This document shows positions 12,482 through 61,971 of a stretch of DNA of 64,000 bases, in pieces (the first letter of the stretch is position 1; the number at the start of each line of letters is the position of its first letter). The DNA comes from Mytilus galloprovincialis (Eukaryota; Mollusca; Bivalvia; Mytilida; Mytilidae), in NCBI RefSeq assembly GCF_965363235.1, contig NC_134838.1, positions 10,510,441 to 10,574,440 on the forward strand. Direction: 5' to 3'. Under the pieces are notes generated by a model that was not told where the DNA came from, made no database searches, and saw nothing but the letters and a program-made list of their open reading frames with translations. Made by a program: the position numbers and the translations under genes.

Positions 12482-15400
12482 TCAATAGCATCTAATGGTT
12501 CTGTACCAACAGATATAACAGCTGTATTTGTTCCACCATCTCCTTCTGCAACATCGACCAATGTAGTAATAATAATAACATGCTCTTTTTTGGATGCCGT
12601 GTTCTGCAAGTATAAGAAAAATGGCTTAAATAGATACTGATCATTCCTGTAATATTGTCAATCTAGAAGTATATTTAACATTGCAGTAAAGTGCTAGGTT
12701 TTACTAGCCACCAGACCAGGCTCACTGAATTTCATCAATATAATCGAACTATAAACAACCGTTTTACAAGTGAGAAGTTTAGCTAGCTTTATAAACAGGT
12801 TAACCTATCAAATTCTGCGGAAATACCTGTACCAACTTCGGAAAAGACAGTTGTTTTCAATTGGTGTTTTTGGTTGATAAAGTATAAAGTTTGATTTGTA
12901 GCTCCCCTATTTGGGTTTACCAAGGAGTTGTTTTTGTTATACTTTTTTATAGTCAATTTGTATTAAGCTTTTGCTGATATATTGTATCTAAAAACTTCAA
13001 GTCCGAAGAACCTAAACGAGTCTTGTATTTGTTTTATTTTAACTTTTTTTGCGGGACTGCACGATTGAGGAGTTGTTTGTTGTTTGCCACACATTTGTTG
13101 TAAATATTTTATGCATCTAAGGAGAATATTCAACAACTTCATTTCTTGGGAAACTCTTCCATAAAGTTATCGATTAAATTGAAACTAAAAAAGCATACCT
13201 TTGTTACAATGAACAGCCTTAACATAAGCAATATCTAAATCTCCACACTCTTCTTTGATTTCTGCTTTGGTGTCATTCGGGATGTTTTCGTCATCTTCAA
13301 AAGCTTCATGGCATGTTTTGGAATCTGAAGGGTCCTGTGTAGACAATTCAATTATCAAAGTTAATGATATATATTTAGTATCGTCTCACATAATATGAAA
13401 CAAGAATTTCTAAGATAACTAAGTTATTTTTGAAAACTAAATTTGTAGAGTTTAGATAGTCTAGAATTATGCATGCTTGCGTAAGTACTATTTTCTTCAT
13501 TCATAGTCAATAACAGTTTTTAATATATGGTTGTGAAAAGCAAGACATTTCTACAAACTCTGAATATTGACACCAAAGCAATCCTTTAGAATTTTAAATG
13601 AATTTTAATTTACGATAGTTTCCAATCCAGATGCTTGTGTTTTTTATCAACAGTCATTGATTTTAAGGTCTCGTGTCAATTTAGTGTAAATACTAAATGT
13701 AGTAACCGACACCTTTGCCTCCTTTTCAATTTATTTCTTTAGTAACGGAGGGCCTGTAAGACAATGACGAAATATACCAGAGAGACAGTCAAACTCATAA
13801 ATTGAAAATAAACAGACAACGTCTGGCTAAAAATGAAAAAAGACAAATAGTCAAACAATAGAACACTCGAAACAACACATGTAGAAAACTAACGAATAAG
13901 CAACACGAACCCCACAAAAGACTATGTAAATGAACCCTAGCCTCATTATCATTTCAATGTTAAAATCCTAATTTTAAATGATTGTATAGTTGTATACTTC
14001 TATTCTTATGATTATTTCATAAAAAATTGACAAACAACTGTACTTATGATTTTATTTTGGCTCTTTTCCCTTTGAAATTGCCTTGCGGATCTCACACTTC
14101 TATAGAGCAGTTCAAAGCTTTTCAAAGCATAAATTTAGCTACAATAATGTTCGGCCATTCATGAATAGCATTTTACAGTGCATGGAAAGCCATGTAATTT
14201 GAAATTTTAAATAATGATTTTCCATTAGACGAGAATCGGTGCTTTGGATGAAGAGATGTCTCATCTGCACTCATACAACATCTTCTTATATATAAATTAT
14301 TTATAACAAAAACTCTGGTTGCAAACCAATAACATAAATGTCACAATTGAATCATTAGAGAATTGTCATGCAAAGTTCTGTAAAAACTGGTTTTAAAGGG
14401 ATTTAATTATGTGAATCCTTGTTTGGTCAGTTTCATTTCCCTTGAAAACATTTGTTAACATTTATTTGCATTTACCTCATAAAACTGAACATTGCAGTTT
14501 CCATTGTACTTGATGATTGAATACTCCTAAAACAACCAAAGGAAAATGAATAAGAATGCTTGATATAAGTGACCATTTTAACATTATTACATCAATGAAA
14601 GAAGATTATAAGCCATGTCGTCTAAAAGACTCAGTTTTGTTGACACATAGATAATTGTTTTAAGTATATGTAGCTACAGTGTTCACGTATGTTTGTTCAT
14701 AAAATTGAAATGAAGACTGAGTATTGAGAATATAATCATTTGCATGTGTATGCTTAGTTTTATATTACATATAAGTTAAGGTACGAGAATAGCTGTAATA
14801 TTCACAATGTGTAAGATAACCCGTTGGAATTAAACGAAAGAAATTAAACTTTTTATAAGAGAAGATATAACAGTTAAACAAATTGGTATAATTCAATTGT
14901 ATACATCTGGTTCTATGAACTTTAAAATTTTACTAAAGATGCATAATTCCGGATATTTTGCATCTCGTATGCGTGTTTTCACTAACTTGACAGTATGGGG
15001 CCTCGATTTATTTGTAGATTTTAAAATATAGACATATTCGAATAGAACAGTCGATTGTACGTGCAGCAATTCTGCAGAAAAAAAACTCAACAGATAGACA
15101 GAAGATTGAATCTGCAGCTCTGCCCCTTACCGACAGTTTTGTTTGTTTTAATAAAATCTGAAAAAATGGGCAATAATTTATACATATCATTTCACGTTCG
15201 GTCCTATTTAAATTGATTTCCTTTCTTGAAAATATATAAAACAAAATATAATTGATACATAAATTGTTATCTTACTTTGTTTTTACTGGTAATTTCGTCT
15301 GCCAGTATAACACCATCTTTCTTGATTATTGCAATATCTGTATTCCCAATTTGAACATCAATGACGTCATATTCCCCACCTTTATTGTCTTTCAATACGT

Positions 15401-17061
15401 TTTCTGATACCTGTTTAAAACTACATCTTAACTAGTTACTGTTCAATTTTTCACAGAGTTTCATTCGTATTCAAACATATACATGAATGTGTCTTACATG
15501 TGTTTTCACATGCATAATCTATCTTTAATTTTGCATCAATATGAAGGCAAAAGTAGTATACCGGTGTTCAAAAGTCTTAAATCGATTGATGACAGTTTAC
15601 GTTCTATAATTGATTTAAACGTAACAATAAAAGATGACCATGTGAATGTTCATTCTCTCAAATCAGTTTTAATTTTCTTCGGAGTTCAGTTTTTCCGTGA
15701 TTTGCCCTTTTTTGTACACACAAGAATTCATATATATGAAATTTGAAATGAAAATTAAGAATGTGTCAAAGAGACAACCATCCGACCAAAAAGTATAAAC
15801 AGGCCAAGGCCATCACTGGATCTTCGACATAGCGGATGCAGCTTTAGCAAAAACATACTCAAGTTAAGTGACATTTGAAGTCAAACTAACTTTGAATCAT
15901 ATTAATGAAGTAAAATATAAAAAAAGAACATACAAGACAAACAAAATCAAGAGGCTCCTGAATTGGGATAGGCGCAAATATACGGCGGGGTTAAACGTAT
16001 TCTGTTAGGTTGCAACCCTCTCCTACACCTGACGCCAATGTAAAATAAACAAACACAAAGCAATCTACACATAAAAACTCAGTTTAAAAGAAATCTGATG
16101 TCAGGACAGGAAACAGAAGAAACAAAACAAAGGACAATGATACATAAATTAACAAAGGACTACTACCTGTTACTGACATGCCAGCTCCAGACCTCTATAG
16201 AAATAATTGTATGATATGTATTCATCATATGAAAATAGGTTATGAAATCGTAGAATGTATCAGAGTATTATAACTCGAATCTGCCAACAACTGATGGTTA
16301 TGTATTATCGTTAATCATTTTAACGAGCTGTTTTTATCTCGATTGAGCCGCTACGGTATCGCTATATTGCCTGTGTTAGGGACGACATCAAAAGTTCAAT
16401 GAAGGATAAAAAACTTAATTCAAATAGTTTTTTTACTGACCCCCGTACCCCCCTCTTAACTTAATTTGGGAAAAATTGATTGACCCATATAGATATATGT
16501 AAAATCGATGTAGGATAAACAAAACTTACAGAAAGTTTAACCCCCCCACCCCCAAACTATTTGAATGAAGTTTTTTATCCTTCATTGATCTTTTGATGTC
16601 GTCCCTTAAAGATGATGATTTTATTGACATCGAAACGTGCTCACTTAGTTTCTAGCTATAATTGTTCATATAACTATACTGTGGTGCGAAAAGAAATTAT
16701 CAGTCAGTAAGATAAAAGAAAATTTCTTAACATAGCGACAAATGTATTTGTTTCTTATGAAAAAATACTATGAGTGAATCAATGTTAATTCCAAAATAAA
16801 TGTCAGCTTAAATGACCTGACAAAGTATCGTCACTATATCCATATGAAAACGTCTGTTTAAAGGTTTGGTTAACTTTCGAGGAGAATGACGACCTTTTGT
16901 GCTTTGTATAGAATATTACCATCAAGTTTGTTTATGTTATCATGGTTATTGCTAGTACTTTTACATAACATTCAACTACAATACTAAAAACTCATTACCT
17001 TCGATGCTTCAAACATACTGGCACTCAACAAAATGAACGATAAAACTATCCCTTTATACAT
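12482..17061 (-). CDS. R2: secreted pre-pro peptide, BRICHOS-like prodomain and six-cysteine cationic C-terminus
   Basis: Five coding exons on the minus strand: 16999-17061, 15276-15410, 14476-14526, 13199-13334 and 12482-12603, all with GT/AG introns and no internal stop, giving 168 residues. Residues 1-21 form a signal peptide. The prodomain (about 22-129) has cysteines at 77, 91, 113 and 126 and an acidic stretch in exon 4. A Gln-Lys-Arg site ends at residue 135. The last 33 residues have six cysteines spaced C-x8-CC-x9-C-x2-C-x6-C. Compared with F1, the mature part differs at two residues (Asn for Tyr153, Ser for Thr156). Intron 3 is longer than in F1. R2 is transcribed away from F1, and the two share a palindromic upstream region. 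A host-defence role is inferred from composition; no named family is assigned. The BRICHOS assignment is tentative. Confidence 0.78.
13690..13935. repeat. Dispersed repeat fragment in intron 3 of R2
   Basis: Contains CCAGAGAGACAGTCAAACTC and TAAGCAACACGAACCCCACA. Related sequence occurs at 62700-62900 inside a retroelement tail. The matching place in F1 lacks it. Confidence 0.5.
15745..16205 (-). repeat. Dispersed mussel repeat in intron 1 of R2
   Basis: Copy of the repeat at 525-985, in the same position within the gene. Confidence 0.6.
16379..16605. mobile_element. 227 bp TIR element with TTA target duplication (Harbinger-type MITE)
   Basis: Terminal inverted repeats of about 52 bp (GGGACGACATCAAAAG at one end and its complement at the other, two mismatches) are flanked by TTA on both sides. 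The paralogous site in R1 (1165-1167) and in both plus-strand copies is empty and has a single TTA. A 3 bp TTA/TAA target and GG-starting ends fit PIF/Harbinger MITEs. It lies in intron 1 of R2 and has no coding capacity. Confidence 0.85.
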
Positions 17062-20035
17062 TTTCTCACTACAAAAGACATTTGATCATGAAATAATAAA
17101 ACCTGTCATGCTTATCAATATTTTCTAAACGTAATTCACCTACAGAACGCTTAACAATTCATTACGACTTTTGACATATCTATTGCTGGCCATTATTGTG
17201 ATGTATCTTACAAAATATGTTTTAATTCGATCTACAAATGCACATATTGGATTGAAGTTAAGCCAATTGAACCTTTAGTATATATAGAATTTACAAATAA
17301 TCTTTGTACTTTAATGTAGGATTGATTGCTTTTGACTAAATAATGTATTTGTTAACATACTTAGTTGATGTGTAGATACATATGTTATCGAATTATAAAC
17401 AATATATCAATAAATAAATGTACTTAAATAAAAAAAAAGTGAAAATAATTACAAACTTACAATTTTGAATTAACAGCTGTTCTTATTTGTGGTTTAAATG
17501 ACCTGTAAATTTGAGAAACTATGTTAAAGATGAAACGAGCGTTTAAAAGCATAGTACAACAATTTTTGAATAAGGATTTGATAAACTCTGTTCAGTTTAC
17601 ACAAGGACACTTCAAATTATATTGTTTAACTTACTTTACACCAATCGCAAATACTTTTGATATACTAAGGTAGAGTTTATTCGCTTTTTCCAGCTAATAG
17701 AATGTTTTGTTCTTTATAAGTGAAAACAAGTTGCTTAAGTTTTAGCCGATACAATTTCGTTAAACCCTTTTCCAAGGTCAGTTGCCTTAATTCCGAATGC
17801 ACTTTGACTTAATCATGTTACCCTATCACTATGAAGTTATAACTAATTGATAATAAAAAAACAATGCAATAACTCTATTACAAAAGAAATCGGACAACAT
17901 GTAACCAAAATTAATATATAAGATATTTGATAAAAATACCTAAACATGTGGCGCCATTTTTTGTCTTAACTGCTCCGTGTGAGAGCGGTCATGTTGATAT
18001 GCCAAGATCAGAAACTTAATTCTCAATTATAAAGTTAAAACGTTATACTGCTTTGTTTTAATGAAATGAACAAAAACTATTAAAATAAGAGAAGCTAAAT
18101 TTGATCAAATAAATTCAGCAAATAGGATACTTATGCATTATTCTTCTATTTTTACACAATAATGCAACTTATAATATTATATATTGTGCTTCGAAAATGT
18201 CCTCGTAGTTTCGCTAATTATATAAAGTAAGTACATTTTAATTAAAGTCAAATGAAGATTTTCTGCATTTAGGAAGCAATATTTGAGGATTTGGCAAATT
18301 GATAGTTGTCTTTAATCTTTTTAAAATACTAAACAAATATTTGTATGTCTTTTTTTCTAATTTTATGAACAAACTAAACTGATCATTTGCGATTCTATAA
18401 GGCTGAAAAACAATGCGCTACTTCAGCGAGTCGTACGTATGTCAAGACATTAACAGTACAAACCTTTGTTTGAAACCTGTATTTAAATATAGCGGGAACT
18501 TGTCGTCTGCTACATTCATTCAAAAGATCTTTGGCATTGTCAAAAAATGTTGTAGTTCACAAAAGTTAACAAATACTATTTGAAGACATGTCGCAATAAA
18601 GTTTTGTTCCTGGTTCGATTCTTCGAAAAGAATTTACTACCTTTCATATCATCTTTACAATAAAATTTATTAAATGGGAGGAACAAATGAACAAATGGTT
18701 TAGGTAGATACCCATTTTAACCGCAAACTTATGAATAATCATCATTTCGCAATACAAATACAGTTAATCCTTTTTCTTCACATTGAGATTAATGCTTGAC
18801 TACTAAAAGTGAAAATTCATCACACACAACGCGTCTTTAACGATACCTTTAAAAAATTATAAACCAAATGATGTGTTAATTTAACGCTTCAGTTGATAGA
18901 AAAATTATGTTTCAAAATCGATTGAATTATTTAAGATTTTTTCTTAATTTCTTATTATGTTGCCCTCCTCTCAAACCTTGGGTCTCATGTTTTATAATCA
19001 ACATGGTTATCAATTTGTACCCCGATACTTTAATAATGTATCAATTTAATTTTATCCTTATTTCTAACCGTAGAAACATATGTTTGCTTCATGACGAGAA
19101 AATAGTGTATACCTTTACTGGCCATTCGATCTATGCACATCGCAGATTCATATGTTTGTGTCATGACGAGAAGATATTGTATACCTAAACTGGCCATTTG
19201 ATCTATGCACATTTATATTTTAGGCTGTTCTTGTACCCCGATACTTTAATAATGTATCAATTTAATTTTATCCTTATTTCTAACCGTAGAAACATATGTT
19301 TGCTTCATGACGAGAAAATAGTGTATACCTTTACTGGCCATTCGATCTATGCACATCGCAGATTCATATGTTTGAATCATGACGAGAAGATAGTGTATAC
19401 CTAAACTGTCCATTTGATCTATGCACATCGCAGATTCATATGTTTGAATCATGACGGGAAGATATTGTAAACCTAAACTGGCCATTCGATCTATGCACAT
19501 CGCAGATTCATATGTTTGTGCCATGACGGGCAGATATTGTATACCTAAACTGGCCATTTGATCTATGCACATCGCAGATTCATATGTTTGTGTTATGACG
19601 AAAAGATATTGTATACCTAAAACGGCCATTTGATCTATGCACATTTATATTTTAGGCTGTTCTTGTACATACGTAATCAATTGCAACATTCTGAATATTG
19701 CGATCTGGGACCAGTCAGGACTCAAATGAATTAAGGAGCAAGTCGACAAAAGTGGTTAGTTTCCATGGGAAAATTCTTACTCCAAACGTAACAAATATGT
19801 TGTCAATCAAGAAATTAAGTCAGTTTCAAATAAACAAATTGTTTTAATCGGATTGATTTTTATTTTACACAGTACGATGTTTTCTTCCCTAAGGCATGGT
19901 ACTCGTAGGCATAAATCGTGCTTTAAAAACAAAAACTCAATCTGATTAAAAATAATAATTCTGAAACTGACTTGATTTCTTGATTGACCACATATTTTTT
20001 ACGTATGGAGGACGTGATTTCAAAACACACTCTGT
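17062..20035. other. Upstream arm of R2; no gene
   Basis: This arm is matched in the same orientation upstream of R1 and in reverse complement upstream of F1 and F2. No TATA box or other promoter motif can be called with confidence. It contains the first minisatellite array (19066-19645). Confidence 0.6.
19066..19645. repeat. 72 bp minisatellite, array 1 (about 8 units)
   Basis: The unit is built around CATCGCAGATTCATATGTTTG and GGCCATTCGATCTATGCACA. A 216 bp (three-unit) higher-order duplication is visible, because CCCGATACTTTAATAATGTA recurs at 19021 and 19237. The R1 flank has a single unit at 3894-3965, so this is local expansion. Confidence 0.85.
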
Positions 20036-21608: not shown

Positions 21609-21896
21609 ATGTGCATAGATCAAATGGCCGTTTTAGGTATACAATATCTTTTCGTCATAACACAAACATATGAATCTGCGATGTGCATAGATCAAATGGC
21701 CAGTTTAGGTATACAATATCTGCCCGTCATGGCACAAACATATGAATCTGCGATGTGCATAAATCGAATGGCCAGTTTAGGTTTACAATATCTTCCCGTC
21801 ATGATTCAAACATATGAATCTGCGATGTGCATAGATCAAATGGACAGTTTAGGTATACACTATCTTCTCGTCATGATTCAAATATATGAATCTGCG
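21609..21896. repeat. 72 bp minisatellite, array 2 (4 units, inverted)
   Basis: Four units of exactly 72 bp starting at 21609, 21681, 21753 and 21825, in reverse orientation to array 1. This fits its place in the opposite palindrome arm. Confidence 0.9.
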
Positions 21897-27404: not shown

Positions 27405-29150
27405 ATTAACACATCATTTGGATTAAAAAATTTTAAAGATATCGTAAGAGACGCGTTGTGTGTGATGAATTTTCACTTGCAAAGTAGTCAAGCATTAATC
27501 TCAATGTGAAGAAAAAGGATTAACTGTATTTGTATTGCGAAATGATGAGTATTCATAAGTTTGCGGTTCAAATGGGGTATCTACCTAAACCATTTTCCCC
27601 CCATTTAAATTTTTTTATAGTAAAGATAATATGAAAGGTATTAAATTCTTTTCTAAGTATCGAATCAGGAACAAAACTCTATTGCGACATATCTTCAAAT
27701 ATTGAAAACCCAGAAGAATCTGATTGGCTTGTACTTCAACAAGGAACACATGAAGGTGACTATATTAAGCTGCAGATATAATCTTCAGACATTCAGCAAA
27801 GGAAAGAAAAGGTACGTTATATCAAAATTATATAGATTAATTAGCTAAAAAATAGTTTTTTGTTCCAGCGAGTTTTTGATCGATTAGGTCATTTAAATGT
27901 CGTTGTATACTTCATGCTCAATTTTTTGAAAATCATTCATTAGTCGACATTTAAATAGGATAGTATTTGTTAACTTTTGTCAACTACAACATTTTTTGAC
28001 AATGCCAAACAGCTTGTCAATGAATATAGCAGACGATAGGTTCTCGCCATATTCAAATACAGGTTTCAAACAAAGGTTTTTACTGTTAATGTCTTTACAA
28101 ACGTACGACTCGTTGAGGTAGCGCATTGTTATTCAGCCTTATAGAATCACAAATGATCAGTTTAGTTTTTTCATAAAGTTAGAAAAAAGGACATGCAAAT
28201 ATTTGTTTAGTATTACAAAAAACGAAAGACTACTATTAATTTGCCAAATCCTCAAATATTGCTACATAAATGCAAAAAATGTTCATTCAACTTTAATTTA
28301 AATGTACTTACTTTATATGATTAGCAAACTACCAAAACATTTTTGAAGCACAATATAAAATATTATAAGTTGCATTATTGTGTAAAAAAACAAGAATAAT
28401 GTATAAGTATCCCATTTGCTGAATATATTTGATCAAATTTAGCTTCTCGTATTTTATTATTTTTTGTTCATTTTTCTTTAAAACAAAGCAGTATAACGTT
28501 TTAACTTAATAATAGAACTATTACCTTTATATTAATGGCTTATATATTTTAACTTGAGAATTGAGTTTGTGATCTTGGCATATCTACACTACCACTTTTA
28601 CACGGAGAGATTAAGACAAAAAATGGCGCCACATGTTTAGGTATTTTTATCAAATATCTTATATATTAATTTTGGTTAAATATTGTCCGATTTCTTTTGT
28701 AATAGAGTTATTGCATTGTTTTTTATTATCAATTAGTTATAACTTCATAGTAATAGGGTAACATGATTAAGTCAAAGCGCATTTGGAATTAAGGCAACTG
28801 ACCCTGGAAAAGGGTTTTACGAAATTGCATCGGCTAAAACTTAAGCAATTTGTTTTCACTCATAAAAAACAAAACATTCTATTAGCTATAATAAGCGAAT
28901 AAACTCTAGCTTAGTATATCAAAAGTATCTGCAATTGGTGTAAAGTAAGTTATACAATAAAATTTAAAGTGTCCTTGTGTACACTGAACAGAGTTTATCA
29001 AATCCTTTTCCACAAATTGTTGTACTATGCATTTGAACGCTCGTTTCATTTTTAACATAGTTTCTCAAATTTACAGGTCATTTAAACAACAAATAAGAAC
29101 AGCTGTTAATTCAAAATTGTAAGTTTGTAATTATTTTTACTTTTTATTTT
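27405..29150. other. Opposite palindrome arm, upstream of F1; no gene
   Basis: Reverse complement of the R2 flank (about 17450-18880), and continuous with 22085 once the TTAA element is removed. A short open frame homologous to 2976-3212 is broken here by a stop. Confidence 0.6.
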
Positions 29151-30389: not shown

Positions 30390-30610
30390 ATTTCCATGAC
30401 ACTTCACCACTAATAACGTACATCTTGATATAGATTGCACCTTTGTTTTCCCGTTTAAAAGGTTTTACACTGGAGCCCTTTATAACTTGCTGTTCGGTGT
30501 GAGCCAAGACTCCATGTTGAAGACCGTATTTTGACGTATAATGGTCTACTTTTATGAATTGTGACTCGGATGGAGAGTTGTCTCATTGTCACATACGACA
30601 TCTATATGGC
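30390..30610 (+). repeat. Dispersed mussel repeat fragment
   Basis: Matches the repeat at 8440-8810 (TTGCTGTTCGGTGTGAGCCA, GGAGAGTTGTCTCATTGTCA). Nested inside the 3.5 kb TIR element. Confidence 0.6.
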
Positions 30611-30860
30611 TCAAAAACGAAACGAGACGGGATAAAAAGGGATGACAAAATCTACGCTACTTTTTTAATATATTTATAATGGGCTTTATATGAGTCAAAA
30701 TAGAGTAAAATAGTGGGTCGCATTTGGGTATAAGCGTCACGCCGGATTGCCGATTTTTTGCAAGCGTGACAGGTGAAAGTCAAATGATTGTGTAGAAAAA
30801 AACGGGAAATGAAGTCTAGCGGGACACGGATAATTACAAAAAAATTAGAACTGCATAGTA

Positions 30861-34021: not shown

Positions 34022-37000
34022 ATGTATAGATGGATAGTTTTATCGTTCATTTTGTTGAGTGCCAGTATGTTTGAAGCATCGAAGGTAATGAGTTTTTCAT
34101 ATGGATATAGTGACGATACTTTGTCAGGTCATTTGACCTGGCAGTTTTTTGGGAAATAACATTGATTCACTCATAGTATTTTGTCATTGGAAACAAATAC
34201 ATTTGTCGCTAAGTTACGAAATTTTCTTTTATCTTACTGACTGATAATTTCTTTTCGCACCACAGTATATTTATATGAACAATTATCGCTAGAAACTAAG
34301 TGAGCACGTTTCGATATCAATAAAATCATCATCTTTAACACAGGCAATATAGCGATACCGTAGCGGCTCAATCGAGAAAAAACATCTCGTTAAAATGATT
34401 AACGATAATACATAACAATCAGTTTGCTAGCAGATTCGGGTTATAATGCTCTCATACATCCTACGATTTTATAACCGATCGGAGTGTGCTTCATTTTCAT
34501 ATGATGAATACATATCATACAATTATTTTTATAGAGGTCTGGAGCTGGCATGTCAGTAACTGGTAGTAGTCTTTTGTTAATTTATGCATTGTCCTTTGTT
34601 TTGTTTCTTCTGTTTCCTTTCCTGACATCAGATTTCTTTTAAACTGAGTTTGTATGTGCAGATTGCTTTGTGTTTGTTTATTTAACATTGGCTTCAGGTG
34701 TAGGAGAGGGTTGCAACCTAACAGAATACGTTTAACCCCGCCGTATATTTGCGCCTGTCCCAATTCAGGAGCCTCTTGATTTTGTTAGTCTTGTATGGTT
34801 TTTTATATTTTACTTCATTTATATGATTCAAAGTTAGTATGACTTCAAATGTCACTGAACGTGAGTATGTTTTTGCTAAAGTTGCATCCGCTATGTCGAA
34901 GATCCAGTGATGGCCTTGGTCTGTTTATACTTTTTGGTCGGATGGTTGTCTCTTTGACACATTCTTAATTTTCATTTCATATTTCATATATATGACTTCT
35001 TGTGTGTACAAAATAAATCACAGAAATACTGAACTCCGAAAATCTTTTATTGTTACGTTTAAATTAATTATAGAACGTAAACTGTCATCAATCGATTTAT
35101 GACTTTTGAACACCGGTATACTACTTTTGCCTTCATATTGATGCAAAATTAAAGATAGATTATGCATGTCAAAACACATGTAAGACACATTCATGTATAT
35201 GTTTGAATACGAATGAAACTCTGTGAAAAATTGAACAGTAACTAATTAAGATGTAATTAACAGGTATCAGAAAACGTATTGAAAGACAATAAAGGTGGGG
35301 AATATGACGTCATTGATGTTGAAATAGGGAACACAGATATTGCAATAATCAAGAAAGATGGTGTTATACTGGCAGACGAAATTACCAGTAAAGACAAAGT
35401 AAGATGACAATTTATGTATAAATATATTTTGTTTTATATGTTTTCAAGAAAGAAAATCAATTTAAATAGGACCGAACATGAAATGATAAACTCCAATTTC
35501 TCTTCTCGATGAAATTATTGCCCATTATTTTAGATTTAATTAAAAAAAAAAAGGTCGGTAAGGGGCAGAGATGCAGATTTAATCTTCTATCTTTCTGTTG
35601 AGTTTTTTCTGCAGAATTGCTGCACGTACAATCAACTGTTCTATTCGAATATGTCTATATTTCAAAATCTACAAATATATCGAGGCTCCATACTGTCAAG
35701 TTGGTGAAAACACGCATACGAGATGCAAAATATCCTGAATTATGCATCTTTAGTAAATTTTTAAAGTTCATAGAACCAGATGTATACAATTGAATTATAC
35801 CAATTTGTTTAACTGTTAGATCTTCTCTTATAAAAAGTTTAATTTCTTTCGTTTTATTCCAACGGGCTATTTTACACATTGTCAATATTACAGCTATTGT
35901 CGTACCTTAACCTTAATGTATCAAAGCTATTTATAGTTTACTACCATCACCATCATGTAATGTAATATTAAAACTAAGCATACACATGCAAATGATTATA
36001 TTCTCAATACTCAGTCTTCATTTCAATTTTATGAACAAACATACGTGAACACTGTAGCTACATATACTTAAAACAATTATTTATGTGTCAACAAAACTGA
36101 GTCTTTTAGACGACATGGCTTATAATCTTCTTTCATTGATGTAATAATGTTAAAATGGTCACTTATATCAAGCATTCTTATTCATTTTCCTTTGGTTCTT
36201 TTAGGAGTATTCAATCATCAAGTACAACGGAACCTGCAATGTTAAGTTTTATGAGGTAAATACAAATAAATGTCAACAAATGTTTTCAAGGGAAATGAAA
36301 CTGACCAAACAAGGATTCACATAATTAAATCCCTTCAAAACCAGTTTTTACAGAACTTTGCATGACAGTTCTCCAATGATTCAATTGTGACATTTATGTT
36401 ATTGGTTTGCAACCAGAGTTTTTGTTATAAATAATTTATATATGAGAAGATGTTGCACGAGTGCAAATGAGACATCTCTTCGTCCGAAGCACCGATTCTC
36501 GTCTAATGGAAAATCATTATTTAAAATTTCAAATTACGAGACCTTTAAATCAATGGTTGTTGATAAAAAAAAACACAAGCATCTGGTGTGGACACTATTG
36601 TAAATTAAAATTCATTTAAAATACTAAAGGATTGCTTTGGTGTCAATATTCAGAGTTTGTAGAAATGTCTTGCTTTTCACAACCATATATTGAAAATAGT
36701 TATTGACTATGAATGAAGAAAATAATACTTACGCAAGCATGCATATTTCTAGACTATCTAAACTCTACAAATTTTGTTTTCAAAAATAACTTAGTTATCT
36801 TAGAAATTCTTATTTCATATTATGTGAGACGATACTAAATATATATCATTAACCTTGTTAATTGATTTTCCTTCACAGGACCCTTCAGATTCCAAAACAT
36901 GCCATGAAGCTTTTGAAGATGACGAAAGCATCCCGAATGACACCAAAGCAGAAATCAAAGAAGAGTGTGGAGATTTAGATATTGCTTATGTTAAGGCTGT

Positions 37001-37722
37001 TCATTGTAACACAGGTATGCCTTTTAAGTTTCAATTTAATCGGTAACTTTATAGAAGAGTTTCCCAAGAAATAAAGTTGTTAAATATTCTCCTTAGATGC
37101 ATAAAATATTTACAAAAAATGTGTGGCAAACAAAAAACAACTCCTCAATCGTGCAGTCCCGCAAAGAAAGTTAAAATAAAAAAAATACAAGACTCGTTTA
37201 GGTTCTTCGGACTTGAAGTATTTAGATACAAAATATCAGCAAAAGCTAAATACAAATTGACTATAAAAAAGTATAACAAAAACAACTCCTTGGTAAACCC
37301 AAATAGGGGAGCTACAAATCAAACTTTATACTTTATCAACCAACAACACTAATTGAAAACAACTGTCTTTTCCGAAGTTGGTACAGGTATTTCCGCAGAA
37401 ATTGATAGGTTAACCTGTTTATAAAGCTAGCTAAACTTGTATAACGGTTGTTAATAGTTCGATTATATTGATGAAATTTAGTGAGTCTGGTCTGGTGGCT
37501 AGCAAAACCTAGCACTTTATTGCAACTAAATATACTGCTAAATTGACAATAGTACATGAATGATCAGTATCTATTTAAGCCATTTTTCTTATACTTGCAG
37601 AACACGGCATCCAAAAAAGAGCATGTTATTATTATTACTACATTGGTCGATGTTGCAGAAGGAGATGGTGGTACAAATACACCTGTTATATCTGTTGGTA
37701 CAGAACCATTAGATGCTATTGA
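34022..37722 (+). CDS. F1: secreted pre-pro peptide, BRICHOS-like prodomain and six-cysteine cationic C-terminus
   Basis: Exons 34022-34084, 35264-35398, 36205-36255, 36879-37014 and 37601-37722 give 168 residues. The start is supported by an in-frame upstream TGA at 33995-33997 and by a hydrophobic signal peptide (residues 5-17). Exon 4 ends in phase 1, so exon 5 must be read in the frame beginning E-HGIQKR, which gives a short peptide ending at TGA 37720-37722. The predicted mature part, residues 136-168, has Cys 137, 146, 147, 157, 160 and 167, ten Tyr, three Trp, six Arg, one Lys and no acidic residue. The prodomain shows a BRICHOS-like order: a beta-strand-rich stretch, Asp residues 12-18 positions before Cys77, and a last Cys126 just before a dibasic site. 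Annelid defence peptides such as arenicin are made behind a BRICHOS domain, which is the closest architecture I know. Mussel MgCRP-I peptides also have six cysteines but, as I recall, a different spacing. Confidence 0.8.
34535..34985 (+). repeat. Dispersed mussel repeat in intron 1 of F1
   Basis: Inverted relative to the copies in R1 and R2, as expected because the whole gene is inverted. Confidence 0.6.
37601..37722 (+). other. Last exon of F1 encoding the predicted mature peptide
   Basis: This exon carries the whole cysteine-rich part and the cleavage site (HGIQKR, residues 130-135). It is listed separately because a longer open frame, shifted by one, runs through the same bases to 37789 and would be picked by naive gene calling. 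That frame needs a phase-0 junction, whereas exon 4 ends ACA-G before the donor GTATGC, which is phase 1. The corresponding exons are 12482-12603 (minus) and 58374-58492 (plus). Cleavage after Lys-Arg by a furin-like convertase is expected from the motif, not shown. Confidence 0.75.
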
Positions 37723-40915: not shown

Positions 40916-40918
40916 TTC
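40757..40918. repeat. Perfect 63 bp inverted repeat (foldback)
   Basis: Arms 40757-40819 and 40856-40918 are exact reverse complements. Inside the 36 nt spacer a further 10 bp (AATTTTATCC/GGATAAAATT) can pair after a 2 nt bulge. The resulting hairpin is about 73 bp long, and perfect arms imply recent formation or gene conversion. Confidence 0.95.
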
Positions 40919-42209
40919 TTAATTATACACCACTATTTTGCAATTTACCATATAATTCTTCTAATTACACCAGACAAAAAAGATCAAGACAAAACATACA
41001 GCCATAAACAGGGCTGAAATTGCAATAAAATTCAAACCAGAGGCATGTTTATTATGTATCCGTTCATACCACCAAAAACTTTAAAAGAATTTATATTTTA
41101 TCCATGCACATTGAATCTTTTATCAATATCAGCCGTCCTGTTTCGAGCAACTAGTAAAATCGAAATCTAATAGCCGATTTAAATACGTGGCCAGCCTGAC
41201 TTCATAAATATCCTAACATAACACACAATATACATAGTATTACGTAGAAATATGGCATACGCCTTGTGGAAATATACATCTACTTTGTATTTCTTAGTTG
41301 AACATTTAAAAAAAATCTTTGCAATGTACTGTTTTTGATCACCATTTGTTTCTTATTACAAATTACAAAATAGAAATTATCGAATTCATGTTTTTTCTCA
41401 TAAACTGTATCTAAGCCACTAAAATATACATGTAACACGGACATATGCACATAGATAGATGGAGCCATTTTTTTTGTAAATTCAAAAAAAGGATAACGTA
41501 GATCACACACTGGATTAACCAAAGGTGTATATGTTCAATGAAATGTCAAAACAATATTTTGAAAATGAGAAGTGAACAAATGAAATTCTAGCATTGAATC
41601 ATATAATTTGCGACTAGGCGAATGTCCCCTTCAAGCCAATCAATTCTGATCTGAAACAGTCATTTTGATCAGATTTTTATTTTCAGTCTTTAAGTTATTT
41701 GTAAGATTCATTAAATGCAGTTAATTCAGTATTGTTCAGACAGATTGATTACATATAAATAAGATATATTCAGTTTATATTCAGACTGTTCAGTTATCAT
41801 TGATACTAACATGTACACATCAACATCATACGGAGTTGTCTAAATAGAAAATAAACAGCTGTGATTGATAGCAAAGTTTCTGAACAGTACCATTCGCCTT
41901 AATAGATCATGTTAGGATCAAAACGACCGTTTAATTCATCTAAATAGTAATCAAAGGTACCAGGATTTTAATTTAGTTCACCAGATGCGCATTTCGTCTA
42001 CATAAGACTCATCAGTGATGCTAATATCAAAATTCACACAAAAGAAAAAAAAGAATTAAAGAAACAGGAATTTAACATACAGTTGTTTCCAAAGCAACTT
42101 CTGAAATTTTCAAGATTTCATGAGAAAATCTGTAAGCATATATATATATCCTTCCGTCCAAATCCGTTTTAACACTTTTCCTTTTTAAAACACATACATA
42201 GATATAAGA

Positions 42210-42830
42210 AGATGTGGTATGAGTGTCAATGTATCCTAGTAACAATTCGTAAAAGTTAACCATTATAAGTACGTTATACCACACAGAGCCTAGGTTCATA
42301 CCTAACAGCAACCTATAAAGGCCCCAAAATGGCTAGCGTAAACCATTCAAACAGGATAACCAACAAACAAATGCAGCGAGTTTTAACGTTTTTTAAAGAT
42401 GACAACCTTCATCATGTTCACCCTAACCTGAATGTAAAATCATACCATAGAAAGACACACATACACAAAATATCAATTAAAATAGCTTAACTCACCCAAA
42501 AGACATCTTAACAAAATCAAGTACACATACACTAAACATATGATTTTATCCCGAATTAAATTGTAAATAAAATAGCAACATGATTTAGGTAAACAAGTAT
42601 AATTTGAAACGTTATAAATGTCAACCTTCTATGCAGTATTTGGTAATAAAAGTAAAATTACGTTTATTCATAATGTGAGTATTGTTTGAAAACTGCCAGT
42701 GTAAATAATTTATGCACTACGAAGTTAGTACTTCTTGTCTCTAACAAAATATAAAGATTAAAAATAAACCTGATATAACTCTTTATTTAAAAGTAAAAGT
42801 ATGCTCGAAAACAGATTTGTATCAACTATT
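42210..42830 (-). mobile_element. Retroelement fragment related to 62460-63990
   Basis: Matches the sequence at 62480-62690 and 63563-63960 without the insert that splits that copy. On the minus strand a short frame (VNFYELLLGYIDT) is the same as in the RT element at 61972-62559. The RT core itself is absent. Confidence 0.6.
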
Positions 42831-49085: not shown

Positions 49086-50872
49086 AGTTTGAAGAGTTTA
49101 GTTGCTGGAAACAGGACAGCTGACATTAATAAAAGATCTAATGTATTATTGTTCATTCATAACATATGAATTCATTAAAGTGTTATTGAGACTGACATCT
49201 ATATTCAATTGGTAGGCGGAATAACAGTCTATTTACTTTAGTTCATTATATTTTTTAGGTGCAAGAACTCATTTAAACTCTTGATTTGCATGCTTTATTA
49301 TTTCAACAGTAAGTAAAGCAGACCGTTGGTTTCTTTGTTTGACTGTTTCACATTTTGTCATGTCAAGGCCAATTAAAGTTGAACATACGGTATGAGTTTT
49401 GTTCATGATTGACGGCAAAACGGGGACCTATGGTATTCCTTACATTAACGTCACTTGTCCCAAGGTGGATAGTTGTTTCCTTGTCAATCTTACCACCTGA
49501 TCTCTTCTTCGTCCATTACTTGGACACTGTCAGCTGGTTGACCATCATCTCAAATGTTGAGAGTTTGTGCTCGAAAGGTGCAATGTTTACACAGGTGTAC
49601 GTACAAACAGATGCAATTATAAGAGAATAGTTCGGTTTCCATCATATAAATTGCTGTCAGTTACATCATCAATCAATTTAATTAGTTGTCATTCACATGC
49701 AAATTCACTTTCAAACGCATATCTTCCATTTTTCATCTGACCTTGTGCTTTCTACAGGCATGGTACTCGTAGCCATAAATCGTGCTTTAAAAACAAAAAC
49801 TCAATCTGATTAAAAATAATAAATCTGAAACTGACTTGATTTCTTGATTGACCACATATTTTTACGTATGGAGGACGTGTTTTCAAAACACACTCTGTAT
49901 TCGTATGGGAACCAACTGTATTCCGCTTTTTGCCGAATTGTCCCTTAATTCATATGAGTCTAGGTTGGTTACCGATAATAATATTCAGTATACTACACAT
50001 ATAAATATAACTATCAGCTAATACATAGAACGTAGTACCGGGTACCAACATAATATGAGTCTGACTTCATACAGAAATTTCGTAGAAAAATGTAAACAAA
50101 TAAGAAGCTTCATTTAACTCTCTTTTCCGGTTTGTATACGTAGATGACATATGTATAAAAAAAAACTCGGCCAATTTTAGCTATTATTCGATGTTCATAT
50201 TTTTTTTAGCGAAAATTTCGCGGACTGATGTGCTCGTCTTTGACAACAATACAAAGTGACGTCAAACGGTATTGTATCTATTCGACAATGAGAAATCCAA
50301 AACTGCTTAGTCAGCTGTAAAAGGTCCAAAATGACCAAGGACTCACAGGCATACTTATATATATGCATTCGGTGTACCATGTTAACATCGACTCAGAATG
50401 TGATAACATTGGATAAAAAGAACATTTTGTGGGTAAAAGAGTGTGAGTTTTTTAAAACTTATTATTGAATTTGATAATATGTTAAAATATCTAACGTTTT
50501 TATTAAAACGAAACAGCCAAATGGCATCTTACGTACTGAGTAAGTTGCTGTATTTGTCCTACAATAATCAAAGATAATCCGTGGCAGCCGTAAATCTGTT
50601 TTCATTTAGCAATGAATTAGACATTTATAATCGTATTTTAAGCTTCGCTTTTCCTTGTGAAAAAAATGCCCAACCTATGGTTCAATGAATGAATGAATGA
50701 ATGAATGAATTAATTGTTACACGAACACCCTAAAATATAAATGTACTTAGATCGCCAGTTTTGATTAACGATATCTTCTACGTCATGGTATAAACATATT
50801 AAATTAAGGTTAAAAATAAGGATAAAAATGTTGCAATTGATTACGTATGTACACGAACAGCCTAAAATATAA

Positions 50873-51729
50873 ATGTGCATAGATCAAATAGCCAGTTTAG
50901 GTTTACAATATTTTCTCATCATGACACAAACATATGAATCTGCGATGTGCATAGATCAAATGGCCAGTTTAGGTATACAATATCTTCTCGTCATGACACA
51001 AACATATGAATCTGCGATGTGCATAGATCAAATGGTCAGTTTAGATATACAATATCTTCTCATCATGACACAAACATATGAATCTGCGATATGCATAGAT
51101 CGAATGGCCAGTTTAGGTATACTATATCTTCTGACATGACACAAACATATGAATCTGCGATGTGCATAGATCTAATGGCCAGTTTAGGTATACAATATCT
51201 TCTTACATGACACAAACATATGAATCTGCGATGTGCATAGATCGAATGGCCAGTTTAGGTATACAATATCTTCTTACATGACACAAACATATGAATCTGC
51301 GATGAGCATAGATCGAATGACCAGTTTAGGTATACAATATCTTCTTACATGACACAAACATATGAATCTGCGATGTGCATAGATCGAATGGCTAGTTTAG
51401 GTATATAATATTTTCTTACATGACACAAACATATGAATCTGCGATGTGCATAGATCGAATGACCAGTTTAGGTATACAATATCTTCTTACATGACAAAAT
51501 CATATGAATCTGCGATGTGCATAGATCGAATGGCCTGTTTAGGTATACAATATCTTCTTACATGACACAAACATATCAATCTGCGATGTGCATAGATCGA
51601 ATGGCTAGTTTAGGTATACAATATCTTTTCGTCATGACACAAACATATGCATCTGCGATGTGCATAAATCGAATGTCCAGTTAAGGTATACACTATCTTC
51701 TCGTCATGATTCAAACATATGAATCTACG
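50873..51729. repeat. 70-72 bp minisatellite, array 3 (about 12 units)
   Basis: Outer units are 72 bp (24 codons, open in one frame). A run of central units has lost 2 bp (TTCTTACATGACAC instead of TTCTCGTCATGACAC) and is 70 bp. This is the longest of the arrays; each sits at the same place in a palindrome arm. Confidence 0.9.
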
Positions 51730-53617
51730 GTTAGAAATAAGAATAAAATTAAATTGATACATTATTAAAGTATTGGGGTACAAATTGATAACCCTGTTGA
51801 TTCTAAAACATGAAACCCAAGGTTTGAGAGGAGGTCAACATCAGAAGAAATTAAGAAAAAATCTTAAATAATTCAAATCGATTTTGAAACATAATTTTAC
51901 TATTAACTGAAGCGTTAAATTAACACATCATTTGATTTTTAATCTTTTAAAGATATCGTTAGAGACGCGTTGTGTGTGATGAATTCACTTTCAGTAGTCA
52001 AGCATTAACCTCAATGTGAAGAAAAAGGATTAACTGGTTTTTTAATTGCGAAATAATGATTATTCATAAGTTTGCGGTTAAAATGGGGTATCTACCTAAA
52101 CCATTTTTTCATTTTTCCCCCCATTTAATAATTTTTATAGTAAAGATAATATGAAAGGTATTAAATTCTTTCTAAGTATCGAATCAGGAACAAAACTGTA
52201 TTGCAACATGTCTTAAAATAATGAAAATCCAGAAGGATCTGATTGGCTTGTACTTCAACAAGGAACACATGACGGTGACTATATAAAGCTGCAGATATAA
52301 TCTTCAGACATTCAGCAAAGGCAAGAAAAGGTACGTTATATCAAAATTATATAGATTAATTATCTAAAAAATAGTTTTTTGTTTCAGCGATGTTTTTGAT
52401 TGATTATGTCATTTAAATGTTGTGATATACTTCATGCTCAAATTTTTGAAAATCATTCATTAGTCGACACTTAAATAGGATATTATTTGTTAATTTTTGT
52501 GAACTACAACAATTTTTTACAATGCCAAACAGCTTTTCAATGAATATAGCAGACGATAGGTTCCCGCCATATTCAAATACAGGTTTCAAACAAAGGTTTT
52601 TACTGTTAATGTCTTTACAAACGTACGACTCGTTGAAATAGCGCATTGTTATTCAGTCTTATAGAATCGCAAATAATCAGTTTATTTTTTTCATAAAGTT
52701 AGAAAAAAAGACATACAAATATTTGTGTAGTATTTTAAAAAAACGAAAGACTACTATTAATTTGCCAAATCCTTAAATATTGCTTCATAAATGTAGAAAA
52801 TCTTTATTTAACTTTAATTTAAATGTACTTACTTTATATGATTAGCGTAACTACGAAGACATTTTCGAAGCACAATATATAATATTATAAGTTGCATTAT
52901 TGTGTAAAAATATAAGAATAATGCATAAGTATCCCATTTGCTGAATATATTTGATCAAATTTAGCTTCTCGTATTTTATCATTTTTTGTTCAATGTTGAC
53001 TGCTGTACCCCTATTTTTGACATTTTTAACTATTGTGTCTGTTTGTTTTGTTCACGCATCGGTGACAATATAAGACAAAAAATGCCGCCACATATTTAGG
53101 TATTTTTATCAAATATCTTATATATTGATTTTGGTTAAATATTGTCTGATTTCTTTTGTAATAGAGTAATTGCATTGTTTTTTTATATTATCAATTCGTT
53201 ATAACTTCATAGTAATAGGGTAACATGATTAAGTCAAAGTGCATTCGGAATTAAGGCAACTGACCCTGGAAAAGGGTTTAACGAAATTGTATCGGCTAAA
53301 ACTTAAGCAATTTGTTTACACTCATAAAGAAACAAAACATTCTATTAGCTGGAATAAGCGAATAGTATAGCTTAGTATATCAAAAGTATCTGCGATTGGT
53401 GTAAAGTAAGTTATACAATAGAATTTAAAGTGTCCTAGTGTACACTGAACTTAGTTTATCAAATCCTTTTCCAAAAATTGTTGTACTATGCATTTAAACG
53501 CTCGTTTCATCTTTAACATAGTTTCTCAAATTATTTACAGGTCATTTAAACCACAAATAAGAACAGCTGTTAATTCAAAATTGTAAGTTTGTAATTATTT
53601 TTACTTTTTTTTATTTA

Positions 53618-54187
53618 CTGTAGCTATCCAATAACCTTTGCAGTAGTGAATTACCTATTGCCTGACCAGCTTAAAAAATTGTCAATACAATATGTCCATT
53701 TAAATTGTACAATAGGTATTGTGAGAGCTATTATCTACAGGTGGTCATTTAACTACCTGTAGATTTACCTGGTTTGTGTTTGACAGAGCGTATTTAAATG
53801 AATGAAAGCTAGCTTGCTTTCTTCATGTTCAATGTCCTGAATGGACTATTCTATTTAGGTATGGGGCATTTTACATTTAATTCACTATTTGTTTTTTCTT
53901 ATAAAGATATTAATGGTAAATTTATTTTGCTTCAATTATTCGACCACAAATGAATCATTGCTGGTAAATCCCACTTTGTACTTTTTTTAATATATTGAAA
54001 ATAATTTTTGTTAACAGTTATTCCAATTGAAATAGATCCTGAATATTGAATGAAACTTAGCATCACTACTATTCCATTTCAGGAATCGTAATATAACATG
54101 AAAATATATCCCATGAGAGAACACCAAGCCACACATAACTCATCTTGTAGAATTATTCACAATTAGATGGGCTATCCAAACAAAAAG
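53618..54187. mobile_element. Truncated copy of the 3.5 kb TA-site TIR element
   Basis: Left end CTGTAGCTATCCAATAACC matches 29153 onward. About 53870-54185 matches 31910-32270. The right terminus is missing and the sequence joins directly to the F2 promoter side at about 54188. Confidence 0.65.
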
Positions 54188-54399
54188 GTTCAATTGGCTT
54201 AAATTCAATGCAATATGTGCATTCGTAGATCGAATTAAAACATATTTTGTTAGATACATCACAATAATGGTCAGCAATAGATATGTCAAAAGTCGCAATG
54301 AAGTGTTAAGCCCTTCTTTAGATGAATTACGTTAAGAACATATTGATAAGCATGACAGGTTTTATTATTTTATGATCAACTGTCTTTTGTAGTGAGAAA

Positions 54400-57300
54400 A
54401 TGTATAGATGGATAGTTTTATCGTTCATTTTGATGAGTGCCAGTATGTTTGAAGCATCGAAGGTAATTTTATTGATTTAATTTGGTATTGTAGTTGAATG
54501 TTATTTAAAAGTACTAGCAATAACTATGATTACATAAACAAACTTTATCGTAATATTCTATACAAAGCACAAAATGTCATTCTCCTCAAAAGTTAACCAA
54601 ACCTTTAAACAGACGTTTTCATATGGATATAGTGACGATACTTTGTCAGGTCATTTGACCTGGCATTTTTTTGGAATAAACATTGATTCACTCATAGTAT
54701 TTTTTCATTGGAAACAAATCCATTTGTCGCTATGTTACGAAATTTTCTTTTATCTTACTGACTGATAATTTCTTTTCGCACAACAGTATAGTTATATAAA
54801 CAGTTATAGATAGAAACTAAGTGAGCACGTTTCGATGTCAATAAAATCATCATCTTTAACACAGGCAATATAGCGATACCGTAGCGGCTCAATCGAGAAA
54901 AAAACATCTCGTTAAAATGATTAACGATAATACATAACCATCAGTTGTTGGCAGATTCGGGTTATAATACTCTCATACATTCTACGATTTTATAACCGAT
55001 CGGAGTGCGCTTCATTTTCATATGATGAATATATATCATACAATTATTTTTATAGAGGTCTGGAGCTGGCATGTCAGCAGCTGGTGGTAGTTCTTTGTTA
55101 ATTTATGTATCATTGTCCTTTGTTTTGTTTCTTCTGTTTTTTCTGACATCAGATTTCTTTTAACCTGAGTTTTGATGTGTAGATTGCTGTGTGTTTGTTT
55201 ATTTTACATTGGCTTCAGATGTAGAAGAGGGTTGCAAATTACCAGAATACGTTTAACCCCGCCGTATTTTTGAGCCTGTCCAAGTCAGGAGCCTCTTGAT
55301 TTTGTTAGTCTCGTGTGGTTTTTTTTATATTTTACTTCATTAACATGATTCAAAGTTAGTGTGACTTCAAATGTCACTGAACTTGAGCATATTTTTGCTA
55401 AAGCTGCATCCGCTATGTCGAAGATCCAGTGATGGCCTTGGCCTGTTTTCTACTATTTGGTCGGATGGTTGCCTCTTTGACACATTCTCAATTTTCATTT
55501 CAAATTTCATATATATGAATTCTTGTGTGTACAAAAAAGGGCAAATCACAGAAATACTGAACTCCAAAGAAAATTAAAACTGATTTGAGAGAATGAACAT
55601 TCACATGTACATCTTTTATTGTTACGTTTAAATCAATTATAGAACGTAAACTGTCATCAATCGATTTATGACTTTTGAACACCGGTATACTACTTTTGCC
55701 TTAATTCATCATATTGATGCAAAATTTAGATATTAAGATATGCATGTCAAAAACTCTTTCATGCAATGTAAGACACATACATGTATATGTTTGAACGCGA
55801 ATGAAACTCTGTAAATAATTGAACAGTAACTTATTAAGATGTAATTTTGAAGGTATCAGAAAAAGTGTTGAAAGACAATAAAGGCGGAGAATATGACGTC
55901 ATTGATGTTGAAATTGGGAACACAGATATTGCAATAATCAAGAAAGATGGTGTTATAGTGGCAGACGAAATTACCAGTAAAGACAAAGTAAGATGACAAT
56001 TCATGTATCAAATATATTTTTGTTTTATATGTTTTCAAAAAAGAAAAACAATTTAAACATGACCAAAAATAAAAGGTAAACTCCAATATTTCTTTTCGAT
56101 TAAATTATTGCCCATTTTTTAGATTTGTTTTCAAAAACAAAACTGCCGTCGAGAGGCAGAGATACAGAGTCAAAAAAACTAATTAACTATCTTTTTGTTG
56201 AATTTTTTCTGCAAAAATATCGAGGCTCCATACTATCATGTAAGTAAAAACACGTATACAAGATGCAGAAAATCCTGAATTATGCATCTTTAGTAAACTT
56301 TTAAAGTTCATAGAAACAGATGTATACTATTCAATTATACCAATTTAACTGTTATATTTTCTCAAATAAAAAAAATAATTTCTTTCGTTTTATTCCAACT
56401 GGCTATCTTACTGATTGTCAACATGATAACTCTCATCATGTACCTTAACCTTAATGTATCAAAGCTATCTATAGTTTGTTTACTATTATTGCACCATTAT
56501 GTAATATAATATTAAAACTAAGGATACACATGCAAATAATAATATTATCAATCCTCAGTCATCATTTCAATTTTATAAATAAACATACGTTAACACTGTA
56601 CTTCAATTTATTGTTAATTTGTCAACGCAACTGAGTCTTTCAGACGACATGGCATATAATCTTCTTTCATTGATGTCTGTTGTAATAATGTTAAAAGGGT
56701 CACTTATATCATTCATTCATATTCGTTTTCCTTTGTTTTAGGAGTATTCAATAATCAAGTATAACGGAACCTGCAATGTTCAGTTTTATGAGGTAAATGC
56801 AAGTGAATGTCAACAAATGTTTTGAATGGAAGTGAAACTGACCAAACAAGGATTCACATAATTAAATCCCTTCAAAGCAAATTGGTACAAAACTGTGCAT
56901 GAAAATTATCTAATTATTCAATTGTGACATTTATATAATTGCGTGGCAACCTAAGTATGATCCCTTCTATTTTTCAAACTACATGAATAGTACACTATAA
57001 AATGTTGTACATGAATGGCCGTTCACTGTAGCTTAATTATGAAGTGAAAGCTTTAAACTATCCTATAGAAGTGTTGGATCCCAAGGCAATATCAAATGAT
57101 AAAGGGCTTAACATAGCCATTAGTACAACTGTTTGTCAAATTATTATGAAAGACATCATGAGAATAGTAGTATAAAACTATAAAATCATTCAAAGTTAGG
57201 ATTTTAACTTTGAAAATGAATGGTACATTCACATTCCCTCCGTCTCCAGAAAAAATGAAATTGAAAAGGAGGCAAAGTTGTCGGTTACTACATGTAGTAT

Positions 57301-58492
57301 TTAAACTAGGTTGATACCGGACCTTAAAATCAATGACTGTTGATAAAAAAAACTCAAGCATCTGGTTTGGAAACGATTGTAAATTAATTCTCAAGGATTC
57401 TTTAGGTGTCAGTATTCAGATTTATAAACATATATAGCTTTTGACAATTTGAACAATTGTTATTGACTATGAATGGAGAAAATAATGATTCTGCAAAATT
57501 GCATATTTCTAGACTATCTAAACTCTACAAATTTAGTTTTAAAAATGATCTTATTTATCTAAGAAATTCTAATTTCCTATCATGCGAGACGATACTAAAT
57601 ACATATCACTTACCTTGTTAATTGATTTGCCTTCACAGGACCCTTCAGATTCCAAAACATGCAATGAAGCTTTTGAAGATGACGAAAGCATCTCGAATGA
57701 CACCAAAACAGAAATCAAAGAAGAGTGTGGAGATTTAGATATTGCTTATGTTAAGGCTGTTCATTGTAACACAGGTATGCTTTTTTAGATTCAATTTAAT
57801 CGACAGCTTTATGAAAGAGTGTCCAAAGAAACAAAGTTGGTGAATATTCCCCCTAAATGTATAAAATATTTGCAACAAATGTATGACTAACATCAAACAA
57901 CTATTCAATCGTGCAGTCCCACAAAAAAATATAAAATACACACAAGACTCGTTTAGGTTCGCCGGACTGGGGGAGTATTTAGATACAATATATCAGCAGA
58001 AGCTTAATACAAATTGACTGTAAAAAAGGATAGTGAAATAACAACTCCTATATAAACTCAAATAGGGAAGCTCCCTCAAACCTACAAATCAAACTTTATA
58101 CTTTACCAACCAACAACACGAATGGAAAACAACTGTCTTATTCCGATTGAAACAGGCATTTTTTGGAGAATTTGATAGGCGAACCTGCGTTTAAAGCTAG
58201 CTAAACTTCTCACTTGTATAACGGTTGCGCATAGTTCAATTATATTGATGATATTAAGTGTGTCTTGTGGCTAGCAACACCTAGAACTTTATTGCAATTT
58301 TGAATATACTGCTACACTGACAATATTACAAGACTTTCAGGATATATTTTTGCCATTTTTCTTATACTTACAGAACACGGCATCCAAAAGAGAGCATGCT
58401 ATTATTATTACTACATAGGTCGATGTTGCAGAAGGAGATGGTGGAGATACACATGTTACATCTGTTATTACAGAGTCATTCGATGCTATTGA
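54400..58492 (+). CDS. F2: secreted pre-pro peptide, BRICHOS-like prodomain and six-cysteine cationic C-terminus
   Basis: Exons 54400-54462, 55853-55987, 56742-56792, 57639-57774 and 58374-58492 give 167 residues with no internal stop. The signal peptide differs from F1 by one residue (Met for Leu12). The prodomain carries a few substitutions (for example Lys for Asn25 and Asn for His92) and keeps all four cysteines. Exon 5 is 3 nt shorter, so the spacing after the CC pair is 8 instead of 9. The six cysteines, the Gln-Lys-Arg site and the terminal Cys-Tyr are retained. In exon 5 most differences from F1 are silent in this frame (Lys, Cys, Ile, Thr, Tyr and Arg codons), while the alternative frame has a TAG. 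This makes F2 the best evidence for the true reading frame. The gene lies about 20.4 kb from F1 in the same orientation; its upstream side is a copy of the R2/F1 upstream palindrome. Confidence 0.78.
55040..55505 (+). repeat. Dispersed mussel repeat in intron 1 of F2
   Basis: Copy of the repeat at 34535-34985 in the same intron position. Confidence 0.6.
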
Positions 58493-60830: not shown

Positions 60831-60849
60831 AAGAAACACATGAATGATA

Positions 60850-61960: not shown

Positions 61961-61971
61961 AGAATAACATA

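Follow-up and report, generated by a model that had tools for sequence, protein, structure and literature searches.

The stretch of Mytilus galloprovincialis DNA analyzed here, a 64,000-nucleotide window of contig NC_134838.1 (G000:C1:10510441-10574440; genome size 1.38 Gb), carries three complete five-exon genes of a genuine family of mussel precursors that appears to be unnamed and the products of which are most likely hairpin defense peptides. Gene 1 lies on the minus strand (17061-12482), and gene 2 (34022-37722) and gene 3 (54400-58492) lie on the plus strand. Exons were found by comparing the copies with one another, and their boundaries were then set from the sequence; all 12 introns begin with GT and end with AG, their phases are 0, 0, 0 and 1, and the coding sequence of each gene is uninterrupted. 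The products are 168 amino acids (aa) long for genes 1 and 2 and 167 aa long for gene 3. Because the gene 1 product is identical to residues 36-203 of an NCBI protein (here P0001; LOC143065077), in which a 35-residue extension precedes it, the genes are not a product of chance, and the three complete genes proposed in a preliminary description of the window are borne out.

In gene 1, exon 1 (16999..17061), which falls within residues 36-203 of P0001, encodes the signal segment MYKGIVLSFILLSASMFEASK. The prodomain is encoded by exon 2 (15276..15410), exon 3 (14476..14526), which supplies the first prodomain Cys, and exon 4 (13199..13334), which supplies three Cys; exon 5 (12482..12603) encodes the EHGIQKR cleavage site, the mature peptide (12485-12583) and the stop codon, all on the minus strand. 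Gene 2 has the same order on the plus strand, with the signal segment in exon 1 (34022..34084), the prodomain in exons 2 (35264..35398), 3 (36205..36255) and 4 (36879..37014), and the cleavage site, mature peptide (37621-37719) and stop codon in exon 5 (37601..37722). Gene 3, also on the plus strand, encodes its signal segment in exon 1 (54400..54462), its prodomain in exons 2 (55853..55987), 3 (56742..56792) and 4 (57639..57774), and the cleavage site, a 32-residue mature peptide (58394-58489) and the stop codon in exon 5 (58374..58492).

Exon 1 encodes MYRWIVLSFILLSASMFEASK, in which a hydrophobic signal segment was judged to be present by eye. We took the ATG of the MYK/MYR motif as the start, since a signal-like segment follows it. 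Using TBLASTN, we matched the N-terminal extension of P0001 to pieces upstream of genes 1-4. Upstream of gene 1 these include one exon that codes for part of the extension (18463..18519, minus strand), which is probably 5' untranslated, and a second exon (17460..17504, minus strand).

Each product opens with a hydrophobic stretch of 21 aa, followed by an acidic segment of 114 aa, QKR, and then 33, 33 and 32 residues in genes 1, 2 and 3, respectively. The acidic segment has a net charge of -11, -13 and -13 in the same order, whereas the mature peptide has a net charge of +7 and the cysteine spacing C-x8-CC-x8/9-C-x2-C-x6-C in all three genes. The precursor had been described in just these terms (signal, acidic four-Cys prodomain, QKR, a peptide of 32-33 residues with charge about +7, and this spacing), and every one of them recurs in 3/3 genes.

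The window genes belong to a cluster of five genes in tandem. The partial copy previously reported does have its exons 1 (1559..1621) and 2 (55..189) in the window, on the minus strand, as identified by copy comparison; it is not a mere fragment, since its exons 3-5 have their matches to the left of the window (G000:C1:10509592-10509684, 10508351-10508491 and 10507661-10507786), which makes it a gene (gene 4) cut by the window edge. Its mature peptide, encoded in exon 5, is the same as that of gene 1. Gene 5 lies right of the window (C1:10588776-10594134) and encodes the mature peptide of NCBI protein P0007 (LOC143065083). Apart from an orphan exon 3, no more exons were found within 10 kb beyond either side of the cluster, a search that did not cover C1:10574441-10585999. 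The orphan exon 3 (G000:C1:10501732-10501776; L032:3733-3777) has intact splice signals and lies left of the cluster, on the other strand from gene 4. A degenerate remnant of exon 4 (69% over 16 residues) lies within the window at 6309..6356 on the minus strand.

A genome search with gene 2 also returned weak matches on C6 and C4, each of which proved to be a gene with the five exons in the same order; when joined, the exons encode proteins identical letter for letter to P0017 (C6; LOC143077955) and P0018 (C4; LOC143072955). A genome search with the C6 protein found no additional locus. Because both searches score the best candidates only, seven genes is a lower bound. These distant paralogues, the frame described below and the upstream exons add to what had been noted before.

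Protein database searches returned 15, 16 and 18 proteins at E values up to 1, 1 and 10, respectively. All relatives with a species label are from Mytilus (galloprovincialis, coruscus, californianus, edulis and trossulus), and all relatives with an annotation are uncharacterized or hypothetical; P0013, P0016 and P0020 carry no label. P0016 is a diverged member on a 690-base contig, with 53% identity to P0001. P0014 and P0015, apparently predicted fusions, were excluded from alignments. P0009-P0013, P0019 and P0020 are partial or in other frames; among them, alignment A3 took in P0009-P0011, and alignment A6 took in P0010 and P0019. In the annotated P0009 and P0012, exon 5 is read in another frame, apparently through skipping of exon 4 in P0012; this reflects either a second product or an effect of annotation.

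The signal, the prodomain and the mature peptide of eight full-length proteins (28 pairs; P0016-P0018 excluded) show mean identities of 0.81, 0.86 and 0.56, respectively. The prodomain is thus conserved and the peptide variable, a contrast also described for mussel CRP-I. Between window copies overall, synonymous change exceeds nonsynonymous change, showing selection for protein sequence: the proportion of synonymous differences (pS) is 0.134 between genes 1 and 3 and 0.128 between genes 2 and 3, and the nonsynonymous proportion (pN) is 0.048 and 0.029. The values for genes 1 and 2 are 0.032 synonymous and 0.024 nonsynonymous, with 13 changes in total, too few to say.

Across the wider family, the prodomain has a net charge of -10 to -17 (9 proteins) and the mature peptide one of +3 to +9 (13 peptides). 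A C-x9-C-x(4/8/9)-C-x9-C frame occurs in 11 of the 13 mature peptides. P0003 and P0005, the two peptides without it, lack both inner Cys; they are close relatives, and this joint loss may be one event. The equal arms, the variable loop and the joint loss of the inner Cys fit a beta-hairpin with two nested bridges. The peptide of P0017, WPCRKHWYWKLSCGWLGCWFTWAFYWRC, has the Cys of the frame and no others, and the window peptides carry Cys11 and Cys25 (Cys24 in gene 3) besides it. Both AlphaFold models end in two predicted strands with a short turn (block means there of 58, 82 and 79 in the better model). IQKR precedes the mature peptide in genes 1-3 and, among the 11 database proteins with a mature peptide (P0001-P0008, P0016-P0018), in 10; endings in FGK or FGKK in 3/13 peptides (P0006-P0008) suggest amidation.

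We interpret these genes, with a probability of roughly 0.68, as a multigene mussel family of secreted host-defense peptide precursors, from which a membrane-active hairpin peptide would be freed after (G)IQKR. The opposite charges, the variable peptide behind a conserved prodomain, the cysteine frame, the two end strands in the models, the tandem cluster and the possible amidation all favor this reading. The signal peptide would direct the precursor into the secretory pathway, and the acidic, Cys-bearing, mainly beta prodomain (~110 residues) may keep the C-terminal peptide, which is cationic and prone to aggregation, in a soluble and inactive state. Cleavage after (G)IQKR would be the work of a furin-type convertase, and the released peptide of 28-40 residues, rich in Tyr, Trp, Arg and Cys, is predicted to fold as a beta-hairpin, with putative nested bridges Cys2-Cys32 and Cys12-Cys22 (numbering of genes 1 and 2) and variable extra Cys. 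The folded peptide may disrupt microbial membranes; based on architecture, a defense role is likely.

Several observations weigh against this interpretation. The site in P0018 is IQAR, in which the basic pair is absent. The number of Cys ranges from 4 to 9 among the 13 peptides, which makes a single fold for all of them uncertain, and the 13 are not independent, as genes 1-3 are near-identical copies. The first AlphaFold model was poor (predicted local distance difference test score, 52), the hydrophobic moments were ambiguous, and the beta-periodicity of the gene 2 peptide was weak. When four single peptides were shuffled, the frame with a loop of 4-10 residues appeared in 267, 60, 11 and 646 of 20000 shuffles, so it is not rare in the most Cys-rich peptide. 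The analysis covered genes and predicted proteins.

Mussels employ Tyr- and Cys-rich foot proteins, and a content of 31-39% Tyr, Trp and Phe (9 peptides), together with up to nine Cys, would also suit structural or adhesive components of mucus, byssus or shell matrix. A short, positively charged and variable peptide with a hairpin frame behind a convertase-type site suits defense better, and we consider the structural role unlikely. The same convertase-type site, with the possible C-terminal amidation in P0006-P0008, could instead indicate peptide hormones cut from a prohormone. In hormone precursors, the released peptide is usually less variable than the propeptide; here it is far more variable, and the genes have expanded in tandem, which together make hormones very improbable.

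The nature of the prodomain is a separate question, as the preliminary description had suggested that it might be BRICHOS-like. We compared the family with a list of BRICHOS proprotein features from PMC9714404, to which a match to the Pfam profile PF04089 was added. No such match was found: none of 15 distinct proteins (gene 2, 12 members of A3 including three partial or aberrant ones, and the C6 and C4 proteins) matched at E≤10, whereas 3/3 human BRICHOS proteins did. A genome search with PF04089 gave no matches in an exon-by-exon search that gave none in the control genomes either. Alignment with hhalign against single human BRICHOS sequences gave no significant signal (P 0.026 at best), a comparison of no use as evidence, since two of the three control pairs also failed. 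Shuffle-controlled hmmsearch gave no signal, as 458 to 1846 of 2000 shuffles scored equally high. Pfam, NCBIfam and PDB sequence searches found no convincing relative (NCBIfam and single-sequence PDB for gene 2 only). We dismissed as chance the weak matches, such as Leukocidin, Tp47, TraI, OspA and Csa3, the best of which had an E of 0.036.

At the level of predicted structure, the order and count of elements agree with the published BRICHOS core, and in the P0017 model, Cys80 (strand 79-84) and Cys112, which closes helix 106-112, may occupy the BRICHOS bridge positions (beta4-helix 2); in alignment A6, Cys80 is invariant and Cys112 nearly so. No significant fold match accompanied this agreement: 44 other entries, including LolB, FABP and OspA, outscored 2yad, and Foldseek found no match at E≤0.001, its best 50 of 640 rows containing no BRICHOS chain. 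Helix 1 is absent from the model, and the Asp at the end of beta2 in BRICHOS is not conserved in the family. The candidate Asp59 of the window genes sits inside the fourth predicted strand (taken as beta2) and is replaced by Glu or Gln in P0016-P0018; Asp36 is invariant, but it lies in the second predicted strand.

Given these results, we see about an even chance that the prodomain is an unrelated beta-rich fold limited to this mussel family, with a convergent inhibitory or chaperone role; the searches for sequence relatives and folds and the confinement of species-labelled relatives to Mytilus point this way, whereas the agreement in predicted elements and in both bridge-position Cys points away from it. 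That the prodomain is instead a true, very divergent BRICHOS, acting as a chaperone that keeps the hairpin of the same molecule from aggregating, in a mollusc branch of polychaete-type precursors, is possible but somewhat doubtful, as the profile, fold, Asp and helix 1 results all count against it. A bolder reading, to which we give slightly lower odds still, is a mollusc branch of BRICHOS-type defense-peptide precursors that has diverged past the Pfam profile and lost the hallmark Asp, and in which, unlike in Alvinella, an unchanging chaperone would accompany a hairpin cargo that varies around a constant C-x9-C / C-x9-C bridge frame. Should the prodomain be BRICHOS, the chaperone-plus-hairpin design, found in polychaetes only according to a 2022 review (PMC9756803), would extend to molluscs, and the need of the Asp for chaperoning would be testable in natural variants that lack it.

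The genes lie among large segmental duplications, both direct and inverted (10000-19751, 27650-42801 and 49953-63911; most of the long pieces listed are 87-99% alike), and such gene-bearing duplications may drive copy-number change. Arrays of a 71/72-bp tandem unit adjoin the duplicated genes (19015-19668, 21609-21896 and 50873-51726), and two stretches of them are open in one frame (MCIDQMA...). Elsewhere in the window are a 198-bp tandem unit present twice in near-identical form (8349-8747) and retroelement-like open reading frames at 6523-7404 (minus), 7219-7545 (plus) and 61972-62559 (minus), in which a likeness to Penelope-type reverse transcriptase/GIY-YIG was seen by eye.

In the literature, which besides the papers cited elsewhere in this text included PMC11767717, PMC13001179, PMC6265681, PMC10138031, PMC5577615, PMC10745061 and PMC5431198, we found no family of this architecture, although subscription papers lay mostly outside the search and a published name may exist; a search by locus name returned no paper. 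With named relatives all from Mytilus and uncharacterized, the earlier suggestion of an undescribed secreted-peptide family stands, and what is gained is an apparently undescribed family of probable mussel defense peptides, marked by a bridge frame that recurs among its members and by a large prodomain that is predicted to fold. A "BRICHOS domain-containing protein" is upregulated in mussel digestive gland according to PMC4203926, and we draw no link from it to the present family.

ITM2B (BRI2) shares with the mussel family a convertase site followed by a disulfide hairpin peptide (a predicted one in the mussel), as does OAF, which we set beside it by description only. In human ITM2B, the same GIQKR stands ahead of the 23-residue peptide. 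ITM2B differs in being a transmembrane protein with no significant sequence similarity to the mussel family, and it is not known to be a defense-peptide precursor.

The BRICHOS-related antimicrobial precursors of polychaetes (arenicin, alvinellacin, capitellacin, nicomicin and HfBRI) share with the mussel family a signal, an acidic proregion, a basic cleavage site and a C-terminal cationic peptide that is mostly Cys-bridged (putatively so in the mussel). Alvinellacin also belongs to a multigene family, partly in tandem, with the peptide in the last exon. In contrast, the mussel family lacks a detectable BRICHOS sequence match and the conserved hallmark Asp, a comparison made with the annelid precursors by description only; its peptide diversifies behind a conserved prodomain, the reverse of the pattern in Alvinella; and its bridge arms are x9, whereas tachyplesin and capitellacin have C-X4-C-X4-C-X4-C.

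Mytilus CRP-I is likewise a mussel family with a conserved signal and propeptide, a hypervariable cationic six-Cys peptide and no proven function. The preliminary description had judged the cysteine spacing unlike that of known mussel families, and the arrays do differ: CRP-I is a C(X3-6)C(X1-7)CC(X3-4)C(X3-5)C knottin, whereas the window peptides, which follow a large prodomain with four Cys, have C-x8-CC-x8/9-C-x2-C-x6-C and a hairpin frame. Myticalins, mytilins, myticins and myticusins are secreted mussel antimicrobial peptides, as the products of the present family probably are. Myticalins are linear peptides ahead of an anionic C-terminal propeptide, unlike the Cys-rich window peptides; and in all four of these groups a C-terminal extension follows the mature peptide, whereas in the present family the peptide is itself C-terminal.
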